Positions 2,524 to 58,414 of a stretch of 64,000 nt of DNA are shown here, one piece after another. Under the pieces are notes generated by a model. That model worked only from the letters and a program-made list of their open reading frames with translations, had not been told where the DNA came from and searched no databases. Made by a program: the position numbers and the translations under genes. This stretch comes from Paraflavitalea soli (lineage in GTDB: Bacteria > Bacteroidota > Bacteroidia > Chitinophagales > Chitinophagaceae): NCBI RefSeq assembly GCF_003555545.1, contig NZ_CP032157.1, forward strand, positions 810,546-874,545. The letters are read 5' to 3'. Positions within the stretch are counted from its first letter, which is position 1. Each line of letters starts with the position of its first letter.

Positions 2524-5500
2524 ATGAAAAGTCAATCCCCTACATATCAAAAAACCCTTGGTAAAGGCATCATAGAAGAACCTGATTATATTATAGCAAT
2601 CGGCGCTTCGGCAGGAGGGCTGGAAGCGATCCATGAGTTTTTTGATAATATGACAGAGGTTGGAAACTATGCCTTTGTGGTGATCCAGCACCTGTCGCCC
2701 GATTATAAAAGTCTGCTGGTAGAGTTGGTCTCCAAACATACCCGGATGAAAGTACTGGAAGCGGAGCACAATGTGGTATTGCAGAAAAGATGCGTATACA
2801 TTATTCCCAACAATAAGGTAATGACGATCCGGCAAGGTAAAGTGCAATTGGTACAGAAGGCGCTGAATAAAGCGCCCAATACAGCTGTTGACACTTTCCT
2901 GTATTCCCTCGCGCAAGATAAAGGGCCACATGCCATTGCGGTCATCCTTTCCGGTACCGGATCGGACGGAACGCGCGGCGTGGAAGCTATTAAGAAAGCC
3001 GGGGGAATTGTATTGGTACAATCGCCCGAAAGCGCCCGGTTCGACGGGATGCCCAACAGCGCCATCAATGGCGGTAGTGTTGATCATGTATTGTCTCCTG
3101 CAGATATGCCGGCAGCGATCGTTAAACATATCATGGCACATCGGGCAGCTGCCAATGGCAACGGAAATGAAAATGAAAATGGAAACGGAAACGGTCATAC
3201 TTCTCCTCCTACACAAGAGGAATTGCTGCAGGAGATCACCCACCTCATTAAATTAAATACGGGCAATGATTTTCATGCCTACAAACCGGCTACTATTCTG
3301 CGGCGTATTGAAAAACGGATGATGAAACTGGAATTGCATACGCTGGAAGAGTATGTAGCGTATTTACACCAGTATCCCGATGAATCGAATACGCTGTATA
3401 AAAGTTTCCTGATCGGTGTTACCCGTTTTTTCCGGGATAAACAGGCTTATGAGGTGATACGCACACAGGTGTTGCCCGCGCTGGTAAAAACAAAGCAGCC
3501 AGGTGAACTGCTGAAGGTATGGGTGAATGCCTGCAGTACAGGAGAGGAGGCCTATTCGCTCGCTATTATTTTTGAAAGTTACCTTAGAAAGCATGACCTG
3601 CAGCTCGATGTAAAAATATTTGCTACTGACCTTGATGAATCTGCCATTGAATATGCTGCCCGCGGGGTTTATCCCTTGTCTATTGAAAAGGATATCGACA
3701 AAGACATACTGGAAGCGTATTTTATACGGGAAGGGAAAAAATACATGATTACTCCCAGCATCCGCAAAGCAGTGGTATTTGCCCGTCACAATGTATTGAA
3801 AGACCCTCCTTTCATTCACAATGACCTGGTGAGCTGCCGCAATATGCTGATCTATATGGATAATTCACTGCAGCAAAAAGTATTGGATACCCTCGATTTC
3901 TCGCTGCGGGTGGGGGGATTCCTGTTCCTGGGTTCCAGTGAGCACTTATCGGGACTCAAGGAAAACTATGTGGAAACAGAAGGTAAGTGGAAAATATTCA
4001 GGAAGGTGAACCTGAAGCGGCGTCATTACATTGAGCCGGTATACAATACAGGCAGGTCCTACCGCCAGGTGCAGACGACCCGCACGGAGCCTTTATTACT
4101 CAGCAATAAAAAACAGGAAGAGCATTCGCTGGTGGAAGCCTTTAAAGACCTGATGGCGGATGAGGCGAAATATGCGGCTTTGTACATCGATAGCCGGTAT
4201 GAGGTAAAAGATGCCATTGGGGAATTTACCCGGTACCTGGCGCTTCCTGAACGTAAACTCAATTTTCACCTGTTGAAAATGTTACTGCCCGAATTGTCGG
4301 TGCCCATCAATATCTCTATCCGTAAAGCCTGGAAGGACAAAAAGAAAGTGACCGTGCGTGCTATCCGGGTGAAGCGTGCCGACCAGACGGTGCTGGTGAA
4401 TGCGATCATACATCCTTATCCGCCGGATAAGAATCCCTGCACCCTGGTGGTGATGTGGGAAACACCTGATACAAGCGGAGATGAGCTGGAAGTGAAACGG
4501 CACCACCTCTCCCCCGATAGCCAGGCGTTGATACTGGAACTGGAAGATGAGTTGCAGGAGAGCAGGTCCAACCTGCAAATAGCGGTAGAAGGCCTGGAAA
4601 CAGCCAATGAGGAGTTGCAAAGTTCCAATGAAGAACTGTTAAGCGCCAATGAAGAATTACAAAGCTCCAATGAAGAGCTGCAATCGCTGAACGAAGAGCT
4701 GCATACGCTCAATACAGAACACCAGTTAAAGATACGGGAGCTGATAGAGCTGAATGATGACCTTAATAATTATTTTGGCAGTACAGATATCGGGCAGGTG
4801 TTTATTGACGGTGAAATGCGCATTCGCAAGTTTAATCCTGCAGCTATCAAACTGATCAATCTCATTGATTCGGATATTGGCCGGCCCATCGATCATATTT
4901 CCAACAATATAGAACACAGTACGCTGTTGGAAGATATCAAGCATGTATTGAGATCGAAGAAGCTGGTGGAGCGGGAAGTAAAGCTTATAAACCGTACGAG
5001 TGCGCTGATGCGGATATTTCCCTATATCCGTTCTGATAAGAAGACGGATGGCGCGGTGATAACTTTTATTGATATATCCATGATCAAGAACCTGGATAAT
5101 ATCATTACGGGTATATTCAATTCTACATTGAATGCGATCATTGCCTTTAAAGCGCAGCGTAGCGCCTCCAATGAGATCGCCGATTTTCATGTGCTTACTG
5201 CCAACAAGGCGGCGGATGCCTTGTTGGCTGCCAATAGCGAAAAGGCTGCTGGATTTTCTATGAAGTATGACTTTCAGCACCTTTGCAGTAATGGCATCTT
5301 CCAGAAACTGGTAAAGGTGGTGGAGGATAATAAGGCATTTCATGATGAGTGTACGGTGACCATCGGCGAAACTTCGGTGACCTATGAAATGATTGCGGTA
5401 AAGATGATGGATGGCATCATCATTACCTATTCAGATATTACAGAGAAGAAGGAAGCGGAACGGCAACTACATAAGAGCTACAGCGAACTGTTGATTGCCA

Positions 5501-13685: not shown

Positions 13686-13831
13686 AGTCGGAAAGTCGGG
13701 TTTGGTTAGTCCGAAAGTCGGAAAATCCGTAAGTCGGTAAGTAATACTGGAGTCGTAGGGCTGTTTTCTTCGGTCTTTCCGTCTTCCGGTCTTCCGGACT
13801 TGCCTCCCCGGACTTCTGGTCTTCCGGACTT
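13686..13831. repeat. Intergenic palindromic repeat, family A copy 1
   Basis: AAGTCGG and GTCCGAAAGTC words fill the left arm and their complements (CTTTCCGTCTTCCGG, TCTTCCGGACTT twice) the right arm, making a long imperfect hairpin between divergent nusB and groES. Segments AGTCCGAAAGTC (13708-13719) and AGTCGGTAAGTAATA (13732-13746) recur almost exactly at 26791-26813, so this is a dispersed element. Confidence 0.75.
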
Positions 13832-16026: not shown

Positions 16027-16100
16027 GAAGAGCATACAGCATACAGCATATAGCATATCGTATTCAAAAGAATACAATGTTCTATCTGTATCAACAATAC

Positions 16101-18855: not shown

Positions 18856-18887
18856 TGCCCTGATGCCTTGTTGCCTTGATGCCTTCC
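18856..18887. repeat. 8-bp tandem repeat (TGCCTTGA), four units
   Basis: TGCCCTGA, TGCCTTGT, TGCCTTGA and TGCCTTCC follow one another without gaps in the gap between divergent hsp20 and the bacilliredoxin gene. The function is unknown. Confidence 0.6.
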
Positions 18888-18911
18888 AGCCCACCGCGTC
18901 AACTTTTTGCG

Positions 18912-20880: not shown

Positions 20881-20968
20881 GTAAATTTAAAGACTGGACT
20901 AATTGTTAAAATTAACTGATCCTTCATGCTTTGTAACGATTATCCGATATTTAATTATACTTCTTGCA

Positions 20969-21131
20969 GCGATATTGTCGCGACCTTTAAGCGTCTCTTC
21001 AGCGACCTTCCAACGATCTTTTAGCGGCCTTTCAGCGACCTTTTAGCGACGTTATAGCGACCTTATAGCGATATGCCTCCGTATGTCATTCGTAGTTAAG
21101 CCGTTGTACAGCCGTGTGTCAGCCGTATCGG
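20969..21131. repeat. Degenerate 11-bp tandem repeat array 1
   Basis: Ten gap-free 11-bp units occupy 20969-21078: GCGATATTGTC, GCGACCTTTAA, GCGTCTCTTCA, GCGACCTTCCA, ACGATCTTTTA, GCGGCCTTTCA, GCGACCTTTTA, GCGACGTTATA, GCGACCTTATA and GCGATATGCCT. Three further 11-bp units of another type follow at 21099-21131 (AGCCGTTGTAC, AGCCGTGTGTC, AGCCGTATCGG). The period is one DNA turn and is not a multiple of 3. It lies between the lgt terminator and the TonB-receptor promoter. A similar array precedes dnaK. Confidence 0.85.
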
Positions 21132-49139: not shown

Positions 49140-49173
49140 GAAAGCTGCGAGCTTCGAGCGACGAGCTGCGAGC
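49139..49173. repeat. Intergenic repeat, family C copy 2
   Basis: GAAAGCTGCGAGCTTCGAGC followed by GACGAGCTGCGAGC repeats the words seen at 25770-25848, right behind the GSCFA stop codon. Confidence 0.6.
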
Positions 49174-49204
49174 AAAATACAAAATACAGCTGACTGCTTG
49201 CCAC

Positions 49205-50257
49205 TCACAATTCAGCAACAAACTCTTCCAGTTTCTCCAATAGGATCAATTGATTCAATGCCCTGTTGAGGTTTTGCTCCGGGTAATCTATTTTATAATA
49301 CACATCGTTGTTGAGGAAGTCGGTTACAAAGCGAAGGGATTGCATATATACCATCATGAGGCCCGCCTGGTGAATATGTTTCTTTTCGGCCGGGGTAAAA
49401 TTATCACCGATGCCTTCCAGGTAGCCGGCAATGATGGCCTTGTAAAAATCAGCATTGATGGCAATGTCTTCCCATTGGGTGCTGTTCTCATCCTGCGTGG
49501 CGCTCATGCTGCGGATCATATCACCTACATCGGAGAAGAAGAGTCCCGGCATTATGGTATCAAGGTCTACGGGGCACAAGGCCTGGTGGGTGGTGGTGTC
49601 GAGCAGGATATTGCTCAGCTTGCAATCGTGGTGCATTACGCGGGTATGGTAATCTGCCGGATGCTGTTGTATGAATTCATAAAAGTCTACCAGTTTCCGG
49701 CGCTGCCGTAACTCGGCGATCACATGGGTGGACTTCAACAGTCGACTGATGGCAGCTTCACTCACGGCCTGTTCAAACTGGGCATAGCGCAGCGCCAGGT
49801 CGTGGAAATGTGGTATAATGACTTTGAGTTTAGTAGTATCGATGCTGTTGAGTGACCGGGTAAAATGCCCAAAGCATTGGGCTGTTTTATATACTTCAGC
49901 GGCTGTATTGGGAATGGTTTGCGTGTACGAGTCTGCTATAAAACCGGTGGCCCGCCAAAAAAGCTGCTGTTCATCTACCCAATACCATTTCCCGTCATGA
50001 GTAGGTATTAAAGGAGCTATGTGCAAGCCATTGCCTGTGCCAATAACATCGTACACCAACCGGTAATTGTAAATAATGTTCTCGGGGTGTTTGAACATAT
50101 GCCGGTTAATGTTCTGCAATACGATCGGACTGCTATTGCCTTCCCCGGTAAAAGCAACCTTGTATGTATGGTGTATGAGCCCGTTGCCCAGGCTGGAAAC
50201 GAGTGGTTTCCCATGCCCGAATTGCAGGGCTGCAGCTTCTATAATATCTACGTTCAT
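49205..50257 (-). CDS. Aminoglycoside-phosphotransferase-fold kinase, likely N-acetylhexosamine 1-kinase
   Basis: 350 residues from the Met at 50257 (MNVDIIEAAALQFGHGKPLV). Kinase motifs: HDCKLSNILLD (catalytic loop, HxDxxxxN), CPVDLDTIMPGL (metal-binding DLD) and DVGDMIRS, the pattern found in NahK-type N-acetylhexosamine 1-kinases and related sugar kinases. The ATP-binding N-lobe is visible at residues ~20-90. It lies 97 bp downstream of a likely GH109 alpha-N-acetylgalactosaminidase gene on the same strand, so it may phosphorylate released GalNAc. Choline kinase-like or homoserine kinase-like activity cannot be excluded. Confidence 0.75.
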   Translation of the reverse strand: MNVDIIEAAALQFGHGKPLVSSLGNGLIHHTYKVAFTGEGNSSPIVLQNINRHMFKHPENIIYNYRLVYDVIGTGNGLHIAPLIPTHDGKWYWVDEQQLFWRATGFIADSYTQTIPNTAAEVYKTAQCFGHFTRSLNSIDTTKLKVIIPHFHDLALRYAQFEQAVSEAAISRLLKSTHVIAELRQRRKLVDFYEFIQQHPADYHTRVMHHDCKLSNILLDTTTHQALCPVDLDTIMPGLFFSDVGDMIRSMSATQDENSTQWEDIAINADFYKAIIAGYLEGIGDNFTPAEKKHIHQAGLMMVYMQSLRFVTDFLNNDVYYKIDYPEQNLNRALNQLILLEKLEEFVAEL

Positions 50258-53839: not shown

Positions 53840-53847
53840 CAAAGGTA
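53840..53847 (-). promoter_or_regulatory. -7 box of argS promoter
   Basis: The minus strand reads TACCTTTG, 19 bp in front of argS. No -33 element was recognised. Confidence 0.55.
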
Positions 53848-54291
53848 GAATACTGAAGACAGAATACAGAATCCAGTATATAGAATCCAGAATATCAGGA
53901 GCGAGGGGCCAAAAGGGGAACTAAAATCAGTATTTTCTTGCTAGTTCGGGGTAATCAGCAAGCTATCCCAAGAAATAAATCAACGCCCAGTGGGTGAAAT
54001 CAGTGAATCTGCATAATCCGTGATCAAAAATCAAAAAGCTGCTCTTTTTCAGAACAGCCTTTTGCAGATTTAGGGGTTAAACAACAAGTTCAGTATCAAA
54101 TATGTGCTTTTTTAACTGATTAAATGTCAACGCTACAATATATTGATCGTCGTCAAAGTAGAACTACGTAAATCGATTTAGTACTATGCTTTAGCGGAAT
54201 TTGTAATGTGAAAGGGATATGCGATAACTTAATGATAACAGATAATCCCAATAGCAGCATAAAAGGCTATGGACAGTTCTGGCAATTGAAT
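53848..54291. other. Intergenic region between argS and GtrA gene
   Basis: About 440 bp. AGAATAC/AGAATCC words repeat at 53848-53894 (irregular, 9-12 bp apart). I see no gene or RNA in the rest. Confidence 0.5.
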
Positions 54292-55949: not shown

Positions 55950-56246
55950 TTGTCTAATTTTAAGGGAAGTTACGGAAAGGCTGTCAGGTTGATTTTATTG
56001 GATCTTGCTAAATGCTAAAAATTAATGGGTTCGATGGGAACCAGCTTTTTAGATCGTATCTTAGATAAGTGAGTTTTCCAGGCCGGCGCCAGTTTTACTG
56101 AATATTGTCCGTTTGCCGGCAGGAAGCACCCGGGAAATGAACTTATTATCATTTAATCTATTGAAATACTGCGCATTATACATGTTCTCCAATCTGCCTA
56201 AATGGCTAAACCCGCTATGGGCCTGCATTTGAGCCTTGTTGTCTTA

Positions 56247-56356
56247 CTATTACCTTGCTACTGGCTTGCCACTACCTTGCAACTGTGTTGAGACCAGGCA
56301 CCTTGATCGGCGGCTGATCCATGGCGAATCTACGGCTGATCCACGGCTGATCCGGT
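56247..56356. repeat. Degenerate 11-bp tandem repeat array 2
   Basis: Ten gap-free 11-bp units: CTATTACCTTG, CTACTGGCTTG, CCACTACCTTG, CAACTGTGTTG, AGACCAGGCAC, CTTGATCGGCG, GCTGATCCATG, GCGAATCTACG, GCTGATCCACG and GCTGATCCGGT. The first four share an ACCTTG-like end and the last four a GCTGATCC start. The total (110 bp) and the period match the array at 20969-21078, and both have ACCTT units. It ends 138 bp before dnaK, and the rest of the intergenic region (55950-56494) shows nothing else. Confidence 0.85.
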
Positions 56357-56494
56357 GAGATGGGCCGGCAAAAGGCGGGCGTTGGGACTTCTGATGCTCC
56401 GGGGCAGGGTTTTTCCTGACTGACATTTTTTCATCCTCACATGCCGCGGCATAATCATTGATAACCATAAGGGAACATTAAATTCAACACAACT

Positions 56495-58414
56495 ATGGGA
56501 AAGATAATAGGAATTGACCTGGGTACCACCAATAGCTGCGTGGCAGTGATGGAAGGTAATGAACCCGTGGTAATAGCCAATGATGAAGGGCGCCGCACAA
56601 CCCCGTCTGTAGTGGCTTTCCTGAAAAACGGAGAGCGTAAAGTGGGTGATCCGGCCAAACGCCAGGCCATTACCAATCCCCAGAATACAATTACGAGCGT
56701 AAAGCGTTTTATGGGTCGCCGGTACGACGAAGTGACCGAAGAGATCAGCCACTGGAGCTACAAAGTGGTAAAAGGTGACAATAATACCGTACGTATTGAC
56801 ATAGACGGTCGCTTGTATACACCGCAGGAAATTTCGGCGATGGTACTGCAGAAAATGAAGAAAACTGCCGAAGATTACCTGGGTCAGGATGTAACAGACG
56901 CGGTGATCACCGTGCCTGCTTATTTTAATGACGCTCAGCGTCAGGCTACCAAAGAAGCCGGTGAAATTGCCGGTCTCAATGTACGCCGTATTGTGAATGA
57001 GCCTACGGCTGCTGCCCTGGCTTATGGCCTGGACAAAGGCAGACACGATCAGAAGATCGCGGTATTTGACCTTGGTGGCGGTACATTCGATATCTCGGTA
57101 TTGGAACTGGGTGATGGTGTATTTGAAGTAAAATCTACCAATGGTGATACGCACCTGGGTGGTGATGACTTCGATAAAGTAGTGATGGACTGGCTGGCTG
57201 AAGAATTCAAAAAAGATGAGAGCATCGACCTGCGCAAGGACCCGATGGCTTTACAACGTTTGAAAGAAGCTGCTGAAAAAGCAAAAGTAGAACTGTCTTC
57301 TTCCAGCGAAACAGAGATCAACCTGCCTTATATCACAGCTGTTGACGGAGTGCCCAAGCACCTCGTGAAAAAGCTGTCACGTGCGAAGTTTGAACAACTG
57401 AGCGATAAATTATTCGAGCGTTGCCTGAAGCCTTGCGAGCAAGCGCTGAAGGATGCCGGACTGAGCACTTCTCAGATCGACGAAGTGATCCTGGTAGGTG
57501 GTTCTACCCGTATCCCCAAGGTACAGGAGATCGTTGAGAAGTTCTTTGGTAAGAAACCCAACAAGGGGGTGAATCCTGATGAAGTGGTGGCTGTAGGTGC
57601 TGCTATCCAGGGTGCGGTATTGACTGGTGAAGTGAAGGATGTGCTGTTGCTCGACGTAACGCCGTTGTCACTGGGTATCGAAACAATGGGTGGTGTAATG
57701 ACCCGCCTGATCGATTCCAATACCACGATCCCGACGAAGAAATCTGAAACCTTCTCTACGGCCAGCGATAACCAGCCCGGTGTGGAGATCCATGTATTGC
57801 AGGGTGAGCGCCCGATGGCCAATCAGAACAAGAGCCTGGGACGTTTTAACCTGACTGATATTCCGCCAGCTCCCCGTGGTGTACCGCAGATCGAAGTGAT
57901 CTTCGATATCGATGCCAATGGTATCCTGCACGTTACTGCGAAGGACAAAGGCACTGGTAAAGAACAAAAGATCCGTATCGAAGCAGGTAGCGGTCTGAGC
58001 AAGGAAGAAGTAGAAAAGATGAAAGCTGAAGCGCGTGCAAATGAAGCGACCGATAAGGAAGCCCGGGAAAAAGTAGAAAAGGTGAACCAGGCAGACAGCC
58101 TCATCTTCCAGACAGAAAAGCAACTGAAAGAGTTTGGTGAAAAGATCCCTGCTGATAAGAAAGCGCCTATCGAATCGGCTTTGAATAAGCTGAAAGAGGC
58201 ACACAAATCACAGGATGTAGCAGCCATTGATACGGCAGTAGCAGAAATGAACAATGCCTGGACGGCTGCTTCTGAAGAGATCTATAAAGCACAGGCAGCA
58301 GCAGGTGGACAACCTGGTGCTGATGGTGGTCAGCCAGGTGCTAACGGCGGCGGACAAGCCAATGCCGGCGGTGGTGAGAATGTGACTGATGCGGAGTATG
58401 AAGAAGTGAAGTAA
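56495..58414 (+). CDS. dnaK: Chaperone DnaK (Hsp70)
   Basis: 639 residues, full length. The ATPase domain shows [18 protein letters not shown] at the N-terminus, [40 protein letters not shown] and [20 protein letters not shown]. The substrate-binding and lid domains follow ([40 protein letters not shown]). The tail is a Gly/Gln/Asn-rich linker ([20 protein letters not shown]) ending in TDAEYEEVK, close to the usual EEVK end. dnaJ and grpE are not adjacent. A 110-bp array of 11-bp repeats lies upstream and a strong terminator downstream. Confidence 0.98.

Follow-up and report, generated by a model that had tools for sequence, protein, structure and literature searches.

A dispersed 11-bp repeat element upstream of dnaK in Paraflavitalea soli and an association of 11-bp arrays with an unannotated protein family

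The parC centromere of plasmid R1 consists of ten 11-bp direct repeats, arranged in two groups of five near a promoter, which are bound cooperatively by the autoregulating protein ParR. The element described here, one copy of which lies upstream of dnaK in P. soli, likewise has some ten direct repeats of 11 bp, which by eye fall into two sets of five. In contrast to parC, the element occurs in tens of copies per genus with unit sequences that vary by subfamily. The ParR and ParM genes of plasmid partition adjoin parC; an OmdA-domain gene and dnaK adjoin the array in our window. BOX and BIME elements are dispersed intergenic mosaics of modules with an internal repeated module, an organisation shared by our element, which differs in its nearly fixed unit number and register and in being tied to one protein family.

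Two further systems from or including Bacteroidota are comparable. The FopS/RbpB paralogous sRNAs of Bacteroides thetaiotaomicron number 14 copies, of which nine are intergenic; they have sigma-ABfr promoters, a shared seed and a predicted consensus structure (PMC11697453). Our element resembles FopS in having a promoter-like motif upstream of its conserved part (49 of 67 copies, doubtful in the dnaK copy), but differs in its 11-nt repeat tail, in that no structure was found and in its linked protein family. Direct repeats of the heptamer TAACTGA are abundant and intergenic in Beggiatoaceae, Cyanobacteria and some Bacteroidetes (PMC4679880). Like these our repeats are abundant, intergenic, direct and of a fixed short period, but instead of one fixed 7-bp unit they have an 11-bp period and units of many kinds, together with a leader and a gene family linked to them. 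A search of the PMC literature, judged mostly from titles, gave nothing that we recognised as this class of 11-bp arrays or as its association with a protein family.

The array upstream of dnaK is a copy of a dispersed element

The window is the whole 64,000-nt stretch analysed, corresponding to positions 810546-874545 of the 8.44-Mb single-contig genome. The initial annotation had reported a gapless 11-bp periodicity upstream of dnaK, and this was borne out by Tandem Repeats Finder, which returned two period-11 arrays (56251-56284 and 56311-56353), as well as by lag-11 scores of 23.0 and 26.8 for the two parts; at period 11 a score of 20 was not attained in any of ten Markov-shuffled 64-kb windows. 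The array had been described as ten gapless units filling 110 bp. There are indeed ten units, gapless and in phase, but their register is 56242-56351, five bases before the one first given, and they form two five-unit blocks of different consensus (YCTTRCTAYTR-like in block 1, CCACGGCTGAT-like in block 2). The features of the locus, together with the second 11-bp array of the window, are as follows.

56056..56062, + strand: GTATCTT, promoter-like motif, doubtful in the dnaK copy
56211..56232, + strand: conserved leader end ...CCTGCATTTGA (leader positions -22 to -1, 78% identity across distant genomes)
56233..56241, + strand: 9-nt spacer between leader and first unit
56242..56296, + strand: block 1, five 11-bp units TCTTACTATTA CCTTGCTACTG GCTTGCCACTA CCTTGCAACTG TGTTGAGACCA
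56297..56351, + strand: block 2, five 11-bp units, with CCACGGCTGAT at the end
56419..56494, + strand: dnaK's own 5' region, matched in the other four genus genomes
56495..58414, + strand: dnaK (HSP70)
20962..21128, strand not given: second 11-bp array of the window, member of a different dispersed family

A model built from the leader and five units matched 70 times, in all five genomes of the genus (Niastella clade; 11, 19, 9, 20 and 11 matches), whereas among 147 genomes of the bacterial family strong matches were confined to the two genus members drawn, G000 and G003, and the others gave at most 30 bits. The copies share a layout in which a leader ending in or near TGCATTTGA is separated by about 9 nt from a first set of about five units, after which come about five units of a second kind; by eye, most copies begin with five units and a few with four. 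Four matches to the leader motif carried no array (L039, L050, L052 and L054). The initial annotation had named indels that are not multiples of 11 as evidence against a real unit structure, a test that the copies passed. In a MAFFT alignment of 30 copies preselected for an array score of at least 10 (L118, L138, L027 and L005 left out), the leader and five units spanned 99 columns with one internal 1-nt gap, and an invariant or nearly invariant T recurred every 11 nt. The register also held in block 2, where nine of 31 copies had a CGGCTGA-like motif at a distance from the leader of +78, +100, +111 or +122, offsets that are equal modulo 11; a tenth copy (L044) had one match off register. A loose global alignment was broken up by numerous short gaps of every length, no less in the leader than in the array, so that the 11-bp rule was not apparent in it; we gave preference to the MAFFT alignment and the modulo-11 offsets because such an alignment was judged unreliable on diverged repeats.

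The promoter-like motif GTANNTT, which resembles elements enriched before genes in the window genome, was found upstream in 49 of 67 copies, compared to nine of 67 when the opposite strand of these windows was scanned (counts that exclude the array-less model matches L199 and L200 from other genera). Motif and leader are conserved and the stretch between them is not. The GTATCTT at dnaK is doubtful because it lies at -177 from the leader end, while in most copies the motif is near -111, -131 or -141. Genes downstream of the element were preferentially co-oriented with it (41 vs 19, p = 0.006), in part because the protein family described below contributes to this bias, compared to 35 vs 31 for genes upstream. 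When copies were checked for an insertion sequence or MITE, their pairwise similarity ended at varied points, and there was no empty site close enough in sequence.

Within a copy, units 1-4 were 0.714 identical. Between copies of one genome their identity was 0.703 at the same index and 0.648 at other indices, and between distant genomes it fell to 0.424 and 0.419, with a further drop to 0.18-0.35 when the register was shifted. Leader identity between distant genomes was 0.78, a value to be read with caution because it was the leader motif that had served to collect the first copies. Because unit identity between distant genomes is low, leader identity high and shifted-register identity lower still, the unit sequence has turned over within lineages while the register was kept. 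Copy spread after the species split could contribute to this pattern.

The leader-array element is present at dnaK in two of five genus genomes (G000 and G002). dnaK's own 5' block was matched in all four other genomes, of which only G002 carries the element there; the leader and five-unit model gave no match at dnaK in G001, G003 and G004, and G004 has a different 11-bp array at this gene. An Rfam search of the window gave no match above gathering score. The dnaK array is a copy of the dispersed leader-array element that does not adjoin a gene of the protein family described below, that is, an orphan. Two other orphan loci, here meaning copies without a noted family gene, are likewise kept across species, one in G000 and G002 and one in G000, G002 and G004.

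The initial annotation had further compared the dnaK array with the other 11-bp array of the window. That neither array of the pair is explained as a recent duplicate of the other was supported, and so was a genome-wide class of such arrays, since 18 intergenic period-11 arrays scored in an 864-kb sample of the window genome and none in shuffled intergenic DNA. The proposed equal length and common ACCTT core were not supported: the second array scores over 167 bp (20962-21128), ACCTTG straddles a unit border in the family register, and the unit consensus of other copies is CTTAC/CTTGC-like. The second array's own family had 22 matches, itself included, in four of five genomes, and no A2/A3 family protein was found in 12 fetched loci. 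Its flanking genes are common to a copy in G002, and three copies of the window genome share the ordered end AGCGACGTTAT AGCGACCTTAT AGCGAYATRCC ... GCCGTTGYACA. The two blocks, the leader, the promoter-like motif, the dispersed copies and the protein-family association went beyond that first description.

11-bp arrays in front of A2/A3 family genes

Many copies of the element have a downstream gene in common, which belongs to a protein family that we call A2/A3. A profile of this gene gave 91 matches in the five genomes, some of them fragments, and 22 of the 24 closest family genes with fetched loci were preceded by the element in the orientation of the gene. We scored 70 family loci, leaving 21 of the 91 matches unscored, for a period-11 array (score at least 16) within 1500 bp upstream. 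The first 30 loci, 27 of which had an array, are not independent of it, the A2 protein seeds having come from array-bearing loci; 34 of 40 loci that were found by protein similarity only, hand-picked from 61 such protein-only matches and including one with a truncated upstream region (L301), also had one. Together 61 of 70 family loci were thus preceded by an array, compared to 31 of 910 control genes and, in the fairer control of genes with an upstream spacer of at least 300 bp, 21 of 195 (Fisher p = 6e-32). At a score of at least 20 the difference persisted (58/70 vs 21/195), and none of the 70 family upstream regions had an array after shuffling. Distant subfamilies carry different units (GGATAGTGTAT, GATAAGCCGTA and CATCCATATCA). 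Most of the examined A2/A3 genes are therefore preceded by an 11-bp array, the unit of which differs by subfamily while the period of 11 stays.

For the 59 arrays scoring at least 18, the median distance of the one nearest to the gene was 206 nt; four to six units were counted in 33 of them. Period 9 showed a small excess in the family (9/70 vs 8/195, p = 0.02) that was gone at score 20, no clear excess was seen at periods 8, 10, 12 and 13, and 7-bp arrays were fewer at family loci (5/70 vs 36/195). The converse association is weak: most 11-bp arrays do not adjoin a family gene, only two in the 864-kb sample do so, one of them next to a 26-bit homologue, and a 41-bit homologue in the same sample has no scored array beside it.

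Outside the genus, the family was found in 16 of 59 genomes of other genera. These provided 27 loci, six without a start found, and in ten of the 21 scorable ones, which include L339 and L354 with hardly any upstream sequence, an 11-bp array lay within 700 bp upstream, a proportion that stands without a control from those genera. One genome (G049) has five TACTTTATCCA-like units before its family gene. There was no trustworthy match to the family in Pfam, NCBIfam, PHROGs, PADLOC or PDB sequences and no convincing relative in viral contigs or phages. The one plasmid match, on p1 of Marivirga sp. BKB1-2 (L355, 5436-6182), is missing from the plasmid's gene table; it is preceded by two 11-bp units with a weak score of 16 and followed by a DUF5675 gene and by the gene of a small protein that weakly matches a membrane-protein family of phages. 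A DUF5675 gene lay behind the family gene in two examined loci.

Short-period arrays in the wider sample

In the 864 kb of the window genome, intergenic arrays peaked at periods 7 (45 arrays), 8 (16) and 11 (18) and their multiples, compared to 0-1 arrays each at periods 9, 10, 12 and 13, and shuffled intergenic DNA had none at 7, 8 or 11. The 11-bp class was met seven times in 200 kb of G004, six times in 200 kb of G001 and a single time in each of two 100-kb samples, from G003 and G006; none was found in 100 kb each of G008 and G022, which belong to two other genera. Placement within 15 nt after a stop codon characterises the 7-bp arrays (47% of 57, compared to 9% of random positions) and the 8-bp arrays (54% of 24, compared to 11%), but was rejected for the 11-bp class (11% of 18, compared to 9%).

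Several individual arrays of the shorter periods were recorded. The window contains degenerate 7-bp arrays at 53847-53894, 49143-49214 and 16029-16063 and 8-bp arrays at 13708-13831 and 18856-18895, and at genome position 4282411 an 8-bp array is joined directly to a 7-bp array. The commonest post-stop 7-bp units were AATACAG (5), AGTCGGC (3) and AATCGGC (2), in one orientation relative to the gene. In the MAG Sphingobacteriales bacterium 46-32 (L114), two intergenic regions (3690-4005 and 4640-4850) show the same order of a 7-bp array, an 8-bp array and 8-9-bp T-rich repeats in the interval from the end of one gene to the start of the following one.

What the arrays may represent

We tentatively favour, at a probability of about 0.42, the explanation that the arrays are helically phased recognition sites for a factor linked to the A2/A3 family and that the orphans are solo copies. 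The array would then be DNA with repeated sites in helical phase, about one per turn, whose units would be read cooperatively by a sequence-specific factor; this factor, most simply the family protein or its partner, would co-diversify with the family and control the gene behind the array. Orphans such as the one at dnaK would be solo copies tying a neighbour to the same factor, or relics. We infer binding and regulation from the fixed spacing, the lineage-wise turnover of units and the different arrays before different subfamilies, and since the family has no recognisable domain, a DNA-binding role for it is a guess. The weak converse association and the smaller excess at period 9 count against this explanation. 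So does the rarity of inverted unit copies, which are common in operators but were found here (at least 10 of 11 matches) in three of 59 arrays. Such a copy lies within 90 bp beyond the direct array at L308, L319 and L321.

Part of the unit pattern could have arisen, with no reader involved, from a lineage-specific spread of copies, and the arrays might be non-functional mosaic repeats that lengthened 11 bp at a time through slippage and were carried along when segments were duplicated, so that period and number are relics of descent. We find this rather doubtful. The occurrence of more than one kind of unit in a genome, the exchange of blocks at unit borders, the duplication of some copies along with downstream sequence, the large share of orphans and the presence of 7- and 8-bp arrays in the window genome speak for such repeats; against them stand unit turnover with the register to the leader kept over distant genomes, three orphan loci kept in two or three species, and a strong link to one gene family that is by far strongest at period 11. 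The promoter-like motif would also fit a transcribed array, and the element could be a multicopy small RNA, comparable to the paralogous sRNA families of Bacteroides, in which a promoter and a conserved 5' domain would precede an unstructured tail whose 11-nt sites bind an RNA-binding protein. The strand bias of GTANNTT (49/67 vs 9/67), the conservation of promoter and leader around a non-conserved stretch, the existence of orphan copies, and the 8-10 RRM matches per genome combined with the absence of CsrA, which was not found in any of the five genomes G000-G004, are consistent with this. The array RNA as a set, however, folded no better than shuffles (z below -2 in two of 31 copies), alifold found no structure, and the 11-bp arrays before the genes of one protein family would be left unexplained, which makes a small RNA unlikely. 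The RRM matches in G000-G004 sit in short open frames. Least probable, and in our view very unlikely, is that the arrays are the ends or origins of a mobile cassette of array, family gene and in places DUF5675, with orphans as solo ends; the many copies, several per lineage and many of them solo, and the plasmid-borne family gene followed by DUF5675 in Marivirga would suit such a cassette, but neither a recombinase domain nor a target duplication nor a terminal inverted repeat was noticed in an unsystematic look, and viral contigs and phages gave no convincing relative of the family.

Other candidates were rejected. A small ORF of 24-34 codons upstream of the array, which in many copies ends ...PRPACI*, is favoured by 17 of 18 leaders of one subtype being open over 34 codons. 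It was rejected because of its codon-position pattern and because ATGs and stops are missing: in codons 12-30 the second positions vary most (0.394 vs 0.285 and 0.279), the synonymous share is 0.278 against 0.240 expected, and several copies have no stop. A second frame had a synonymous share of 0.319 against 0.230 expected, but its stops are scattered, and small ORFs ending at other 11-bp families showed no consistent pattern. An RNA hairpin between the blocks was dismissed on the same folding and alifold results. Rho-loading sites have a spacing of 11-13 nt, and G-rich units in G001 speak against this reading.

Taken further, the favoured explanation of phased recognition sites would describe a diversified recognition system of Bacteroidota, with dozens of paralogues of an undescribed family each having its own 11-bp site array, site sequences that change along with the protein, spacing fixed by helix geometry, and solo arrays recruiting genes like dnaK, an extension that we regard as speculative and somewhat unlikely. 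The 11-bp arrays before family genes hint that these soil bacteria have a recognition system of an unknown kind. If the pairing of array and gene is functional, a large unannotated protein family would gain its first testable role, the naturally diversified protein/array pairs would form a data set on how phased repeat arrays are read, and part of an abundant repeat class ignored by annotation would be explained; it would then also be a question whether dnaK has joined the same control in two species.
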